This document shows, one piece after another, positions 53,648-57,330 of a stretch of DNA of 64,000 nucleotides; the stretch's first letter is position 1; each line of letters begins with the position of its first letter. Origin of the DNA: Pseudovibrio exalbescens. Its GTDB lineage: Bacteria > Pseudomonadota > Alphaproteobacteria > Rhizobiales > Stappiaceae. A program made the position numbers and the translations under genes. The stretch is taken from NCBI RefSeq assembly GCF_028737195.1, contig NZ_JAQZAJ010000003.1:310001-374000 (forward strand). Reading direction: 5' to 3'. Below the pieces are notes generated by a model. That model was not told the origin of the DNA and did no database searches. It saw only the letters and a list, made by a program, of their open reading frames with translations.

Positions 53648-53741
53648 CTCTGGGACGTGCTTGAAACTTGGTGCATTGCGTTGAATCCTCAGGCGGAGTG
53701 CGAAACCGGGCTTAATTGGGGCTGCCCGTGGAGAGATTTTG

Positions 53742-56285
53742 ATGAAAGAGACCGATACTCGGCCACCGGAACCTGTCATTGACCGCAGTGGTGGTGGAGG
53801 AAACATCGGATTGCTTATGTTGCTGGCGCTAGGTCTTGCTGCCGCAACAGCCGTGATCGCCGTGATGAGCCGCGAGCAGGCCGAGCCTTACATTCTCGGG
53901 CTCTTGGGCATTCTTGCGGTCGTCGGCGTTTTCTCTTTGTTTGCCAGTGCCATTGGCCTGTTGCGCTTTGCTTCCCGGCGGGATGGCAACCCGCTGGCAG
54001 AAGCCTTTCTGGATTCTCTCGAAGAGGGGGCGGTTCTGGTCGATCAGACCGGCCGTATCGTCTATGCCAACAAGGCCTACGCGGATCTGACCGGGGCTGT
54101 TAGTCCTGGTGACGTGCGCACGGTTGAGCGGGTGTTTTCAGCCGATCCGGAGGCCGCCGATGCAATTTTCCGCCTTTCCAAGGCTGTGCGCAATCACCGC
54201 CGCGCTCAGGAGGAAGTGCGCCTGCCTGCTGCCATTGGGCGCGTGGATGGCGGCTCGCGGTGGTATCGCATCAGTGTGCGGCCGCTGAACTACCACGACA
54301 AGGCGGGCCAGGCGACTGCAGGCCTCACCGTATGGCAGATCGCGGACATCTCCCGCGACCGAAAAGAGCAGGAGACATCGTTTCAGGAGTTGCAGCGTGT
54401 CATCAACTTCCTTGATCACGCTCCCTCCGGCTTCCTGTCCTGTGATTCCGCAGGCCGTATTGTGTATCTCAACGCCACGCTGGCCGACTGGCTGGGATAT
54501 GACCTGACCCAGTTTGTGGCTGGCGGTCTGACGCTTTCCGATATTGTCCGCGGCGATGGTGCAGCCCTCGTTCGTGCCATCAGCGGGCAGGAAGGCGAGG
54601 TCAAGACCGAGACCTACGACATCGATCTGGTAACGCGCAACGGCAAGGGGCTTCCCGTTCGCCTCGTGCACCGGGTTCCGTTTGGCGCGGAGGGGCAGGC
54701 CGGCGACAGTCGCACGCTTGTACTCAACCGCTCGCCGGGTGAAGAAAACGCAGAAGCTCTTCGCGCAGCCGAGGTGCGTTTCTCGCGCTTCTTCAACAAC
54801 ACCCCGGTTGCCATTGCCTCCGTTGAAAAGAATGGCCGCATTCAGCGCACCAACGCGCCTTTCGTTCGCCTGTTCGGGCAAGAAGATGGGCTGAAGAGCG
54901 AGGCGCGCCTGACAGACTTTGTCGAGGAAGCGGGCCGGGCCGATCTGGAAGAGGCCTTGAAAAAGGCGGCGCAGGGTCAAGGCGAAATCGCGCCGGTGGA
55001 TGTTGCTCTGTCTGAAGGGGCAGAGGCGGGGCGCTCGGCGACCTTCTACGTCTCCGCTGTTCTTGACAGTCAGGCTGAGGACGAGGCGGCCGTTGTCTAC
55101 GTGCTTGAAACGACACAGCAGCGCGCCCTTGAAGCCCAGTTCGCTCAGAGCCAGAAGATGCAGGCCATTGGTCAGCTTGCAGGTGGTGTCGCGCATGACT
55201 TCAACAACGTTCTGACCGCCATCATAGGCTTCTCCGATTTGCTGCTGGCCAGCCACCGTCCAACGGACCCTGCGTTCCAGGACATCATGAACATCAAGCA
55301 GAACGCCAACCGTGCCGCAGGGCTTGTGCGCCAGTTGCTCGCGTTCTCCCGTCGTCAGACCCTGCGTCCGAAGGAGTTGGCGCTGACGGACGTACTGGCC
55401 GACCTCACCATCTTGCTGGACCGCCTTGTGGGCGAGAAGATCGAGCTGCACGTGGTTCATGGCCGCGACCTTTGGCCGGTGATGGCGGATGTGAACCAGC
55501 TGGAACAGGTGATCGTCAATCTGGTCGTGAACGCCCGTGACGCCATGCCGGGTGGCGGTGAGGTGACCATTCGCACCCGCAACGTGGATGAACCGACCTC
55601 AACCACCTATGAGAACACCCGCGGCATGCCGCCTGCGGAGTACGTGCTCATTGAGGTGGAAGACAACGGTCACGGCATGTCCAACGAGGTTCTGGGCAAG
55701 ATTTTCGAGCCGTTCTTCTCCACCAAGGAAGTGGGCAAGGGCACCGGGCTGGGGCTTTCCACCGTCTACGGCATCGTCAAGCAGACCGGCGGCTTTGTAT
55801 TTGCCACCAGTGAGGTTGATGCGGGCACAACATTCCGGATCTTCTTGCCGCGCCATGTGCCGGAGGAAAAGCCGGTTCAGGAAGTGGTCAAGGAAGAAAA
55901 GCAGGCCGTTGCCGATCTTACCGGCTCTGCCACCATTTTGCTGGTGGAGGACGAAGAAGCCGTTCGTGCCTTTGCGGCGCGTGCCCTGTCGTCCCGTGGC
56001 TATGAGGTCTATGAGGCAGGCTCTGGCACCGAAGCGCTTGAGGTCATGGAAGAGACCGAAGGGTCGGTTGATCTGGTGGTTTCCGACGTAGTGATGCCGG
56101 AAATGGACGGGCCGTCGCTGCTTATTGAGCTGCGCAAGACCCGCCCGGATCTGAAGATCATCTTTGTATCCGGCTACGCTGAAGATGCCTTCGAGAAGAA
56201 CTTGCCGGCAGATGAGAAATTCACCTTCCTGCCAAAGCCGTTTACCTTGAAGCAGTTGGCAACCACCGTGAAGGACGTGTTGTAG
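53742..56285 (+). CDS. cckA: Hybrid sensor histidine kinase CckA
   Basis: 847 aa. Two N-terminal membrane helices (about 25-75) lead to at least three PAS-like regions (about 90-440: GAVLVDQTGRIVYANKAYAD, SGFLSCDSAGRIVYLNATLA, FFNNTPVAIASVEKNGRIQR). The HisKA region has His485 in GGVAHDFNNVLTAIIGFSDL. The ATPase N and G boxes are NLVVNARDAMPGGGE and KGTGLGLSTVYGIVKQTGGF. A C-terminal receiver has Asp782 in VVSDVVMPEMDG. It initiates the CckA-ChpT-CtrA phosphorelay, and perfect CtrA-type boxes lie upstream of neighbouring flagellar operons. ATG 53742 follows GGAGAG; the in-frame TTG at 53739 is less likely. Confidence 0.95.
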   Translation: MKETDTRPPEPVIDRSGGGGNIGLLMLLALGLAAATAVIAVMSREQAEPYILGLLGILAVVGVFSLFASAIGLLRFASRRDGNPLAEAFLDSLEEGAVLVDQTGRIVYANKAYADLTGAVSPGDVRTVERVFSADPEAADAIFRLSKAVRNHRRAQEEVRLPAAIGRVDGGSRWYRISVRPLNYHDKAGQATAGLTVWQIADISRDRKEQETSFQELQRVINFLDHAPSGFLSCDSAGRIVYLNATLADWLGYDLTQFVAGGLTLSDIVRGDGAALVRAISGQEGEVKTETYDIDLVTRNGKGLPVRLVHRVPFGAEGQAGDSRTLVLNRSPGEENAEALRAAEVRFSRFFNNTPVAIASVEKNGRIQRTNAPFVRLFGQEDGLKSEARLTDFVEEAGRADLEEALKKAAQGQGEIAPVDVALSEGAEAGRSATFYVSAVLDSQAEDEAAVVYVLETTQQRALEAQFAQSQKMQAIGQLAGGVAHDFNNVLTAIIGFSDLLLASHRPTDPAFQDIMNIKQNANRAAGLVRQLLAFSRRQTLRPKELALTDVLADLTILLDRLVGEKIELHVVHGRDLWPVMADVNQLEQVIVNLVVNARDAMPGGGEVTIRTRNVDEPTSTTYENTRGMPPAEYVLIEVEDNGHGMSNEVLGKIFEPFFSTKEVGKGTGLGLSTVYGIVKQTGGFVFATSEVDAGTTFRIFLPRHVPEEKPVQEVVKEEKQAVADLTGSATILLVEDEEAVRAFAARALSSRGYEVYEAGSGTEALEVMEETEGSVDLVVSDVVMPEMDGPSLLIELRKTRPDLKIIFVSGYAEDAFEKNLPADEKFTFLPKPFTLKQLATTVKDVL

Positions 56286-56336
56286 AACGGGCCATCTGAA
56301 CGTAGCTAAGCCCTGCCGTTCAGGGCAGGGTGTTTT

Positions 56337-56361
56337 GACATCACTGGGAATGATCTCAAAC
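56337..56361 (+). promoter_or_regulatory. Upstream copy of the ORF6N palindromic element
   Basis: GACATCAC-TGGGA-ATGATCTC (6 of 8 arm positions pair), then AAAC. From 56340 it matches the in-gene copy at 56599-56620 at 19 of 22 positions. It ends directly before the GAGGGGGG ribosome site, an ideal place for a repressor. Confidence 0.6.
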
Positions 56362-56374
56362 GAGGGGGGAATGT

Positions 56375-57262
56375 ATGAGCACGGAAATTACTCAGGAAAC
56401 CCCGGAGTTGGACGAAGAGCTTCTTGACGGACCGCGGGTGTTCAAGCTGCGCGGTCAGCATGTGATGCTCGCGGCCCATGTGGCGCGGGTGTTCGAGGTT
56501 GAAACTCGGCAGATCACTCAGAACATCAAGAATAACCTCGAGAAATTCCCGGAGGCCTATGCCTTTGAGGTCTCGCCGGAGGAGCTGGACGCCTTGAGAT
56601 CACTGGGGGTGATCTCAAAACCGGGTCGGGGCGGCAGCCGCGCCTTGCCGTGGGTTGTCAGTCAGAAAGGGGCCATTCGCCTCTCCACCATCATGGACAG
56701 TCCAAAGGCCATTGAAGCGGCTGACGTTTTCATCGATGTCTTCACCGAGGTCCTGCGGCAGGTCTATGCGGGCAAGGACCAGTTGGAAATTTCCAAGCCA
56801 TCACGTCTCAAGCCCAGTTCCGAGCTTCAAGAGCGGATCGAGAAGATCCGCACCCAGTTGTTTTCTGCAATCAATGACCTTCTGGAAACCAAGGTGGACA
56901 GCCAGAACAAGATCACCGTGAAGGATGAATTGGGTCAGGTGGCAGATGGCATTCGCAAACACTATCATGAGTGGCTCAAGTCCAAGCGCGTCAGCAACGA
57001 CAAGATCGAGGCGGAGACACTTCTGCTGCTGGAAAAGGTTCAGGACTTGCGGGAACGGCGCGCCGCGCATCTGAGTGGTGCTGCGCTGTCGCGTGAAAGC
57101 CAGGCGCTTGAGAACATGAAGCAGAAGATCGCCATCATCAAGGATCTCATGGACCTTCACGACAAGCTGGAACCCAATGCGGTCGTGCAGATGGTCGGCG
57201 ACTACAGCGCGCTCGCGCTCACCGATGCCACAGAGAAGATACTGGAAAAGCCAAAGGGCTGA
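56375..57262 (+). CDS. ORF6N-domain DNA-binding protein
   Basis: 295 aa. The N-terminal ORF6N domain (about 15-115) is seen in VFKLRGQHVMLAAHVARVFE, VETRQITQNIKNNLEKFPEA, LDALRSLGVISKPGRGGSRA and FTEVLRQVYAGKD. The C-terminal half is helical, with RERRAAHLSGAALSRESQAL. ORF6N proteins are typical of phages and mobile elements and thought to bind DNA; no other phage gene is nearby. The codons for LRSLGVIS form a perfect palindrome, and a second copy lies just upstream of the ribosome site, suggesting autoregulation. Confidence 0.85.
   Translation: MSTEITQETPELDEELLDGPRVFKLRGQHVMLAAHVARVFEVETRQITQNIKNNLEKFPEAYAFEVSPEELDALRSLGVISKPGRGGSRALPWVVSQKGAIRLSTIMDSPKAIEAADVFIDVFTEVLRQVYAGKDQLEISKPSRLKPSSELQERIEKIRTQLFSAINDLLETKVDSQNKITVKDELGQVADGIRKHYHEWLKSKRVSNDKIEAETLLLLEKVQDLRERRAAHLSGAALSRESQALENMKQKIAIIKDLMDLHDKLEPNAVVQMVGDYSALALTDATEKILEKPKG
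56596..56616. repeat. In-gene perfect palindrome encoding the ORF6N LRS motif
   Basis: Arms GAGATCAC (56596-56603) and GTGATCTC (56609-56616) around TGGGG: eight of eight pairs. It encodes RSLGVIS of the ORF6N domain. Confidence 0.85.
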
Positions 57263-57290
57263 GTTGGCCTTGTTCCGCACCAGATACGAA

Positions 57291-57330
57291 AACACCCGCG
57301 AAGGTCGAACCTTGGCGGGTGTTTTTGTTT
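57291..57330. terminator. Terminator between ORF6N gene and lipoprotein gene
   Basis: AACACCCGC (57291-57299) and GCGGGTGTT (57315-57323) enclose a second inner stem AAGGT-CGA-ACCTT; a T run follows on the plus strand. Confidence 0.85.

Follow-up and report, generated by a model that had tools for sequence, protein, structure and literature searches.

A palindrome within ORF6N coding sequences follows the recognition residues of the encoded proteins and is very probably their binding site

Intragenic operators are known from lac O2 in lacZ and gal OI in galE, where a symmetric protein-binding site in the coding sequence has a partner 5′ of the gene. In Bacillus subtilis, the parS site inside spo0J (parB) is almost invariant, functions in chromosome segregation and has further copies elsewhere. 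Palindromes within or between genes also occur as rickettsial palindromic elements and REP sequences. Among proteins, the closest described group comprises the ORF6N and Bro-N phage antirepressors; the gene in our window (the whole 64-kb stretch of DNA analysed) is an ORF6N member, and Bro-N was the second family tested. A search of the open-access literature, with most subscription journals outside it and PMC8263062 included, gave no description of a site inside ORF6N or Bro-N genes. As far as these searches show, the in-gene dyad described below is an undescribed trait in the open-access literature.

The ORF6N-domain gene (56375..57262, + strand, 295 amino acids) was assigned from the ORF listing and a match to the PF10543 profile (E 6.2e-20, 71.7 bits, above the curated cut-off of 27.8), the sole PF10543 match in its own genome in a whole-genome profile search. 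It is a single chromosomal gene with cckA-like and lipoprotein-like neighbours, and no adjoining phage genes were noted in the ORF list. The conserved family element, a dyad of 27 bp with 10 of 11 pairs, was located within the gene at 56593..56619 (codons 74-82). The earlier note had described a palindrome, GAGATCAC-TGGGG-GTGATCTC, at 56596-56616; it is present as claimed, and the real dyad is longer, with a perfect 25-bp form, TTGAGATCAC TGGGG GTGATCTCAA, at 56594-56618 over codons L74-K82 (LRSLGVISK). The second copy of the dyad (56334..56360, 9 of 11 pairs) is centred at 56347, is unpaired at ±3 and ±8, and lies between a terminator-like stem and the likely ribosome-binding site GAGGGGGG (56362..56369, + strand, read from the sequence), which directly adjoins it on the 3′ side. 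Positions 56340-56361 match the coding copy at 19 of 22 bases, just as first reported.

A chance occurrence of the two copies had been called unlikely, and the counts agree: with up to 3 mismatches allowed, GAGATCACTGGGGGTGATCTC occurs at these two places alone in the 64-kb window, and 100 dinucleotide shuffles of the window gave a mean of 0.01 matches and a maximum of 1. The degenerate form TTGANATCA-N7-TGATNTCAA has two exact matches in the 4.39-Mb genome (G000), both of them dyads of this gene, and six more places match with 1-2 mismatches. Homologues of the window gene were found in 5 of the 121 genomes searched, its own included, and one other is close (L003 in G011, same genus). The protein from L003 is 84% identical, and both copies of the dyad are kept, TTTGACATCATCGGGAGTGATCTCAAA upstream and TTGAGATCACTGGGAGTGATCCCAA in the gene. 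A contig scan with the window protein alone as the query gave no matches. We also considered an own-genome regulon. The best of the six weaker places seems to correspond to the single further exact match of G011, but each is part of a long ORF read as polyphosphate kinase (from translation alone), and the two were taken as chance.

Two further inverted repeats flank the gene. The stem CCCTGCC...GGCAGGG (56311-56330), followed by TGTTTTGA, lies directly 5′ of the upstream dyad and is probably the terminator of the cckA-like gene (53739-56285); at the same place, L003 has a different stem. The inverted repeat AAAACACCCGCGAAGGTCGAACCTTGGCGGGTGTTTTTG (57289-57327), 3′ of the ORF6N gene, is a likely terminator.

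Relatives were collected from genome contigs (the best 80 of 563 loci), viral contigs (30), plasmids and genomes, and the choice of the best 80 of 563 genome loci makes the sample lean to the typical family. By our own reading of the records, at least 15 phylum-level groups are represented among these best 80 of 563. At the LRSQxVTS codons, nearly every typical member has a 27-bp palindrome of odd length whose centre measures 5 bp, for example CTTGAGGTCACAATTTGTGACCTCAAG, CTTGATATCGCAATTTGCGATATCAAG and TTTGAGGTGCCAATTTGGCACCTCAAA. Five ORFs with a gap at the anchor were left out of the first dyad alignment; the set that was scored comprised 126 genes, that is, distinct genes of at least 100 bits plus one of L037, free of N in the stretch. 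The dyad has 11 of 11 pairs in 57 genes, 10 in 48, 9 in 16, 8 in 4 and 6 in 1. At least 9 pairs are therefore formed in 121 of the 126 and at least 10 in 105, compared with 9 pairs in 5 and 10 pairs in none of 734 control windows from the same genes. The earlier note had only raised the recurrence of the element with other ORF6N genes as a condition; these counts bear it out, and the element recurs in many Bro-N genes too.

Such a dyad could be the by-product of a conserved peptide and codon use, as LRSQxVTS can be coded almost symmetrically, and more than 10 of 200 synonymous recodings match the observed score in 7 of 126 ORF6N genes and in 39 of 70 Bro-N genes (among the matches listed). However, when each gene was recoded 200 times, the observed score was reached by none of the recodings in 92 of the 126 ORF6N genes and by at most 2 in 112. 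Moreover, arms and peptides vary between genes while the dyad stays, and it is kept across reading frames: a script placed eight genes in another frame, six with clear dyads and two (L082, L104) without a clear one, so that a peptide such as EVVANCDHL stands in place of LRSQFVTSS. The window dyad uses rare codons, namely AGA (1 of 118 Arg codons in eight window genes) and TCA (12 of 133 Ser codons). Nor can the peptide account for the link, described below, to residues outside it. Synonymous recoding in most ORF6N genes, together with the residue-base code, largely refutes a by-product origin, to which we assign a negligible probability. By contrast, the proposal that the motif codons are also under selection as a DNA site is upheld by the recoding and the pairing statistics of the 126 genes.

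Among 118 distinct sites (one gene, L082, was left out of the pairing statistics), positions 3-13 are paired in 82-97% of cases, compared with 40-94% if the columns were independent, and all four Watson-Crick types occur at positions 4, 5, 8, 9, 11, 12 and 13. The pairing has a sharp end at ±13, with pair 13 formed in 87% (41% expected) and pair 14 in 48% (31% expected). The same data bear on whether the dyad is an mRNA hairpin that acts in translation control or attenuation, or through binding of the protein to its own mRNA. As RNA, the dyad would form a stem of 11 bp around a 5-nt loop, and the upstream copy of the window gene is positioned just 5′ of its ribosome-binding site, with several other genes having theirs in a comparable position. 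Against a hairpin, the share of G-U among unpaired cells is at the chance level of 2 of 12 types (11 of 90 in ORF6N, 30 of 171 in Bro-N), the loop is conserved neither in orientation nor in sequence, and the 14 loci searched gave no Rfam match at E up to 1. A-C cells account for 36 of the 90 unpaired cells in ORF6N, half of them at pair 7, which we attribute to AGG → AGA being silent there. The ORF6N pairing data (118 sites) gave no sign of selection for a sense-RNA hairpin, and the dyad bases track helix residues in the manner of major-groove contacts. We thus regard the hairpin as very improbable.

The seeming exceptions L083 and L100 carry the dyad further along the same loop, and L082 has no in-gene dyad and two dyads 5′ of its start. 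In a distant ORF6N branch, at least 9 pairs are formed in 8 of 19 low-scoring genes and in 0 of 38 control windows. The PF10543 profile, run over 398 Pseudomonadota genomes, had matches in 42; from 53 loci, 35 further genes (at most 74% identical to the earlier set) could be placed, with most low-scoring loci missed by the profile used for the placement. At least 9 pairs are found in 31 of these 35, compared with 0 of 104 control windows, and 22 pass the synonymous test at no more than 2 of 200 recodings. We must note that L442 and L443 are counted among both the 19 low-scoring loci and the 35 Pseudomonadota genes. By this comparison, the dyad is an element at the DNA level, nearly universal in the typical ORF6N family.

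Several loci have an unusual arrangement. In L062, L041, L056, L038, L100 and L104, two or half-kept dyads lie in frame in one loop, with an LRSQxxTS-like peptide repeated. Adjoining ORF6N genes with differing dyad arms, some of them of another frame class, were observed in L037, L044, L030, L038 and L114. On a Treponema plasmid (L018, 1-3315), the ORF6N gene lies between genes for a DNA methyltransferase and a restriction subunit S.

To relate protein and dyad, we computed the mutual information of the dyad base pairs with protein columns that lie outside the dyad (numbering of L007), after dropping 4 proteins more than 85% identical to others. The peak reached z 44, compared with a column median of 0.8. 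In the helix T-K-V-L-N-Q-A-V-K-R-N, 28-32 codons 5′ of the dyad, pairs 4 and 5 covary with residue 48, and pair 7 with residue 44; the residue that covaries with pair 10 is +12, behind the dyad. The assignments are nearly exclusive. At pair 4, Gln48 is accompanied by A.T in 68 of 71 cases and Glu48 by G.C in 18 of 19; C.G accompanies Arg48 in 19 of 23 and Lys48 in 9 of 10. At pair 7, Lys44 occurs with G.C in 64 of 64 cases, and an A is on the 5′ side in 36 of the 42 with Arg44; at pair 10, Arg at +12 occurs with G.C in 90 of 91 and Lys with A.T in 17 of 18. The predicted base is A for Gln, G for Arg or Lys, and C for Glu. In the window protein, the predicted recognition helix corresponds to codons 43-54 (ETRQITQNIKNN, 56501..56536, + strand), with R45, Q46 and Q49 in the columns that covary with pairs 7 and 4/5, and the predicted wing to codons 86-90 (GGSRA, 56630..56644, + strand), with R89 in the column that covaries with pair 10. 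Both copies of the dyad in the window fit the code, pair 7 being A.T with Arg45, pair 4 A.T with Gln49 and pair 10 G.C with Arg89.

As the covarying residues are coded outside the dyad, the link does not come from reading the same bases. Among protein pairs at least 50% identical, pair 4 differs in 2653 and is the same in 160 when residue 48 differs; when residue 48 is the same, pair 4 is the same in 1842 and different in 54. On a tree built without the covarying columns, residue 48 and pair 4 switch on the same branch in 31 of 248 branches, compared with 6.8 expected, and further joint residue-base switches number 18 (4.4 expected) and 12 (0.9 expected). Among eight control columns, the joint counts went no higher than 13, where 7.9 were expected, followed by 11, where 4.2 were expected. 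Judged by these controls, shared history adds something to the joint switches and does not explain the code. In genes outside the discovery set (31 with at least 9 pairs), the code was correct in 28 of 30, 25 of 27 and 21 of 22 cases. By comparison across genes, the dyad bases follow the putative recognition residues of the protein encoded by the same gene.

Bro-N genes carry the same kind of site at the same place in a less perfect form. Among the matches listed, 80 loci minus 9 without the anchor motif and one duplicate gave 70 distinct viral Bro-N genes, of which 34 have at least 9 pairs and 19 at least 10, compared with 9 and 0, respectively, of 274 control windows. The synonymous test is weaker than in ORF6N, as no more than 2 of 200 recodings attained the observed score in 21 of the 70 genes, no more than 10 in 31 and more than 10 in 39 (again among the matches listed). 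Pairing in 82 distinct Bro-N sites is far above independence at most positions (pair 4, 93% vs 37%; pair 7, 87% vs 37%), is weak at pair 3 and ends at position 13. For Bro-N genes from bacterial genomes, at least 9 pairs were found in 10 of 21, a count favoured by the scanning of short contigs as a whole. Ten named phages were scored: phiKO2, LP0604, vB_LspM-01 and Ph8s have 9 or 10, Norbert, BigNuz, A2 and Dori have 8, phiAT3 has 7 and the Salisaeta phage has 6; the Bro-N gene of phiKO2, Gp27, is annotated as similar to N15 AntB. Since a score of at least 9 is reached elsewhere in the 2-kb locus in 5 of the 10, single named cases are weak evidence. The Bro-N code has the same layout as that of ORF6N, with residue 27 linked to pair 4 (Asp with G.C in 25 of 26), residues 24 and 26 to pairs 5-7 and residue 49 to pairs 9-11; it was obtained from 76 genes with a dyad score of at least 8 and was thus sought where a dyad is present.

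A helix that reads the inner part of the site and a wing that reads the outer part are what a winged-helix-like dimer would need, and each ORF6N protein very probably binds its own coding sequence. The claim of the earlier note that the protein binds the element is accordingly very probable, judging by the recognition code in ORF6N, in the further genes and in Bro-N. A search by sequence gave no solved structure of a relative (E 0.59 and worse); it is from the sequence comparisons that we infer the helix-and-wing fold, the physical binding and the autorepressive outcome.

The copy in front of the gene is less general. A dyad with 9 of 9 inner pairs at 8-110 bp 5′ of the start is present in 9 of 119 genes and in 2 of 114 control stretches; with at least 8 of 9 inner pairs, the counts are 13 of 119 and 8 of 114. 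A close second copy (at least 18 of 23 bases) was found in the flanks of 20 of 123 loci, in some cases in a neighbouring ORF6N gene, compared with 0 of 123 for a reversed-motif control. Looping between two copies, one of the modes of repression put forward earlier, cannot be the general mechanism because most genes have one copy and the upstream copy is a minority trait. The expectation that homologues would keep the palindrome at synonymous sites held; that they would also have an upstream copy did not, as most are without one. In the typical family, the in-gene site is near universal and the upstream site a minority, a contrast that points to the former as the essential one.

Dyads also occur away from the in-gene position. 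Within 480 bp of ORF6N in-gene dyads, there are 16 extra family-like dyads. At pair 4, 9 of them agree with the code of the gene and 7 disagree; one of the seven misfits is the in-gene dyad of a neighbouring ORF6N gene. Among the matches listed for one dyad pattern, mostly in viral contigs, 26 of 97 sites fall inside an ORF6N domain, another 7 are no more than 1 kb away from such a domain, and 64 are in neither place; many of the 64 represent a single phage gene that recurs. In viral contigs, the reversed pattern gave no match. For the 64 sites away from recognised ORF6N genes, self-control is no explanation. In the 398 Pseudomonadota genomes, 10 of 13 pattern sites lie inside ORF6N domains, and the reversed pattern has matches in 2 genomes. 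Stand-alone dyads near other genes (L160, L161, L166) may be further operators or remnants. In L161 (1000-1370), two dyads ~ 225 bp apart lie at the 3′ end of a gene read as phosphatidylserine decarboxylase, the final codons of which seem to recur in part beyond the second dyad. A viral contig (L187, ~ 736) has a perfect family-like dyad followed by a T run, resembling a terminator, with no recognised ORF6N gene near. In 40 genomes with ORF6N genes, there are 0 to 4 pattern sites each (at most 1 mismatch), too few for a dispersed palindromic repeat of the REP or RPE type, a reading that we rejected.

The earlier note had also suggested that the family could mark the DNA that encodes it, for example as a target for recombination or gene exchange. 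Some ORF6N genes are indeed neighbours, and some loops contain doubled dyads, but protein distances show no break at the dyad: the correlation across it is r 0.62, between 0.40 for halves of the N-part and 0.74 for halves of the C-part. Furthermore, in 18 relatives that lack the gene, the empty site has no dyad (best, 6 mismatches of 20), and hybrid dyads would break the pairing, whereas broken pairing is uncommon. These observations lend the suggestion no support, and we hold an exchange target to be highly improbable.

In our preferred reading, which we consider likely from the comparative data, ORF6N is a two-fold symmetric DNA-binding protein, the in-gene 27-bp dyad is its site, and binding is most likely autorepressive. 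The site would lie between the recognition-helix codons and the wing codons, and a dimer on the in-gene dyad would block elongating RNA polymerase as a roadblock, leading to autorepression. At the window gene, the upstream site would block initiation or early elongation as well. As the gene contains the site, it would take its self-control along into any promoter context and keep it there. A self-carried operator fits a family that is scattered through many phyla and phages. It is also conceivable, though we find it unlikely, that the protein binds its own gene with an outcome other than repression and marks or counts copies of itself, for instance by excluding incoming elements with the same allele or by seeding a larger complex on the carrier element. 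The in-gene site being more general than any promoter site would agree with such a role, as would the 0 to 4 pattern sites in genomes with ORF6N genes and the location of related Bro-N genes in phage control regions; a window gene that is single and chromosomal, with no phage genes noted beside it, argues against it.

A broader and more tentative proposal, to which we give less than even weight, is that ORF6N and Bro-N together form a superfamily of self-addressed genes, in which each arm variant defines its own specificity group and immunity is carried inside the gene. In a self-addressed gene, helix, site and wing would be contained within ~ 85 codons, so that horizontal transfer could not part the reader from its address and both would evolve as one. 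An incoming copy of the same allele could come under the immediate control of the resident protein. Should these proteins indeed read their own genes, regulators that are common in phages and bacteria and have had no known targets would gain both a target and a protein-DNA code readable from sequence alone, and the site need not be searched for, as it is already in the gene. Many readers paired with their sites would be a resource seldom offered by nature, from which DNA recognition could be learned. Coding sequence would double as protein and operator in many phyla, which suggests how a mobile regulator keeps its self-control wherever it lands.

As with lac O2 and gal OI, the window gene has a symmetric site within its coding sequence and a partner 5′ of the gene. 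The ORF6N site differs from these operators in its place, which is the DNA-binding domain of the protein presumed to read it, in its presence in almost all typical members of the family, and in that its bases follow the residues of this reader. With parS in spo0J, it shares the presence of the site in the gene of the DNA-binding protein itself (predicted for ORF6N), whereas the arms of the ORF6N dyad vary with the protein and further copies are few. Like the rickettsial palindromic elements and REP sequences, the ORF6N dyad is a palindrome within a gene; unlike them, it is not dispersed, and its arms differ between genes.
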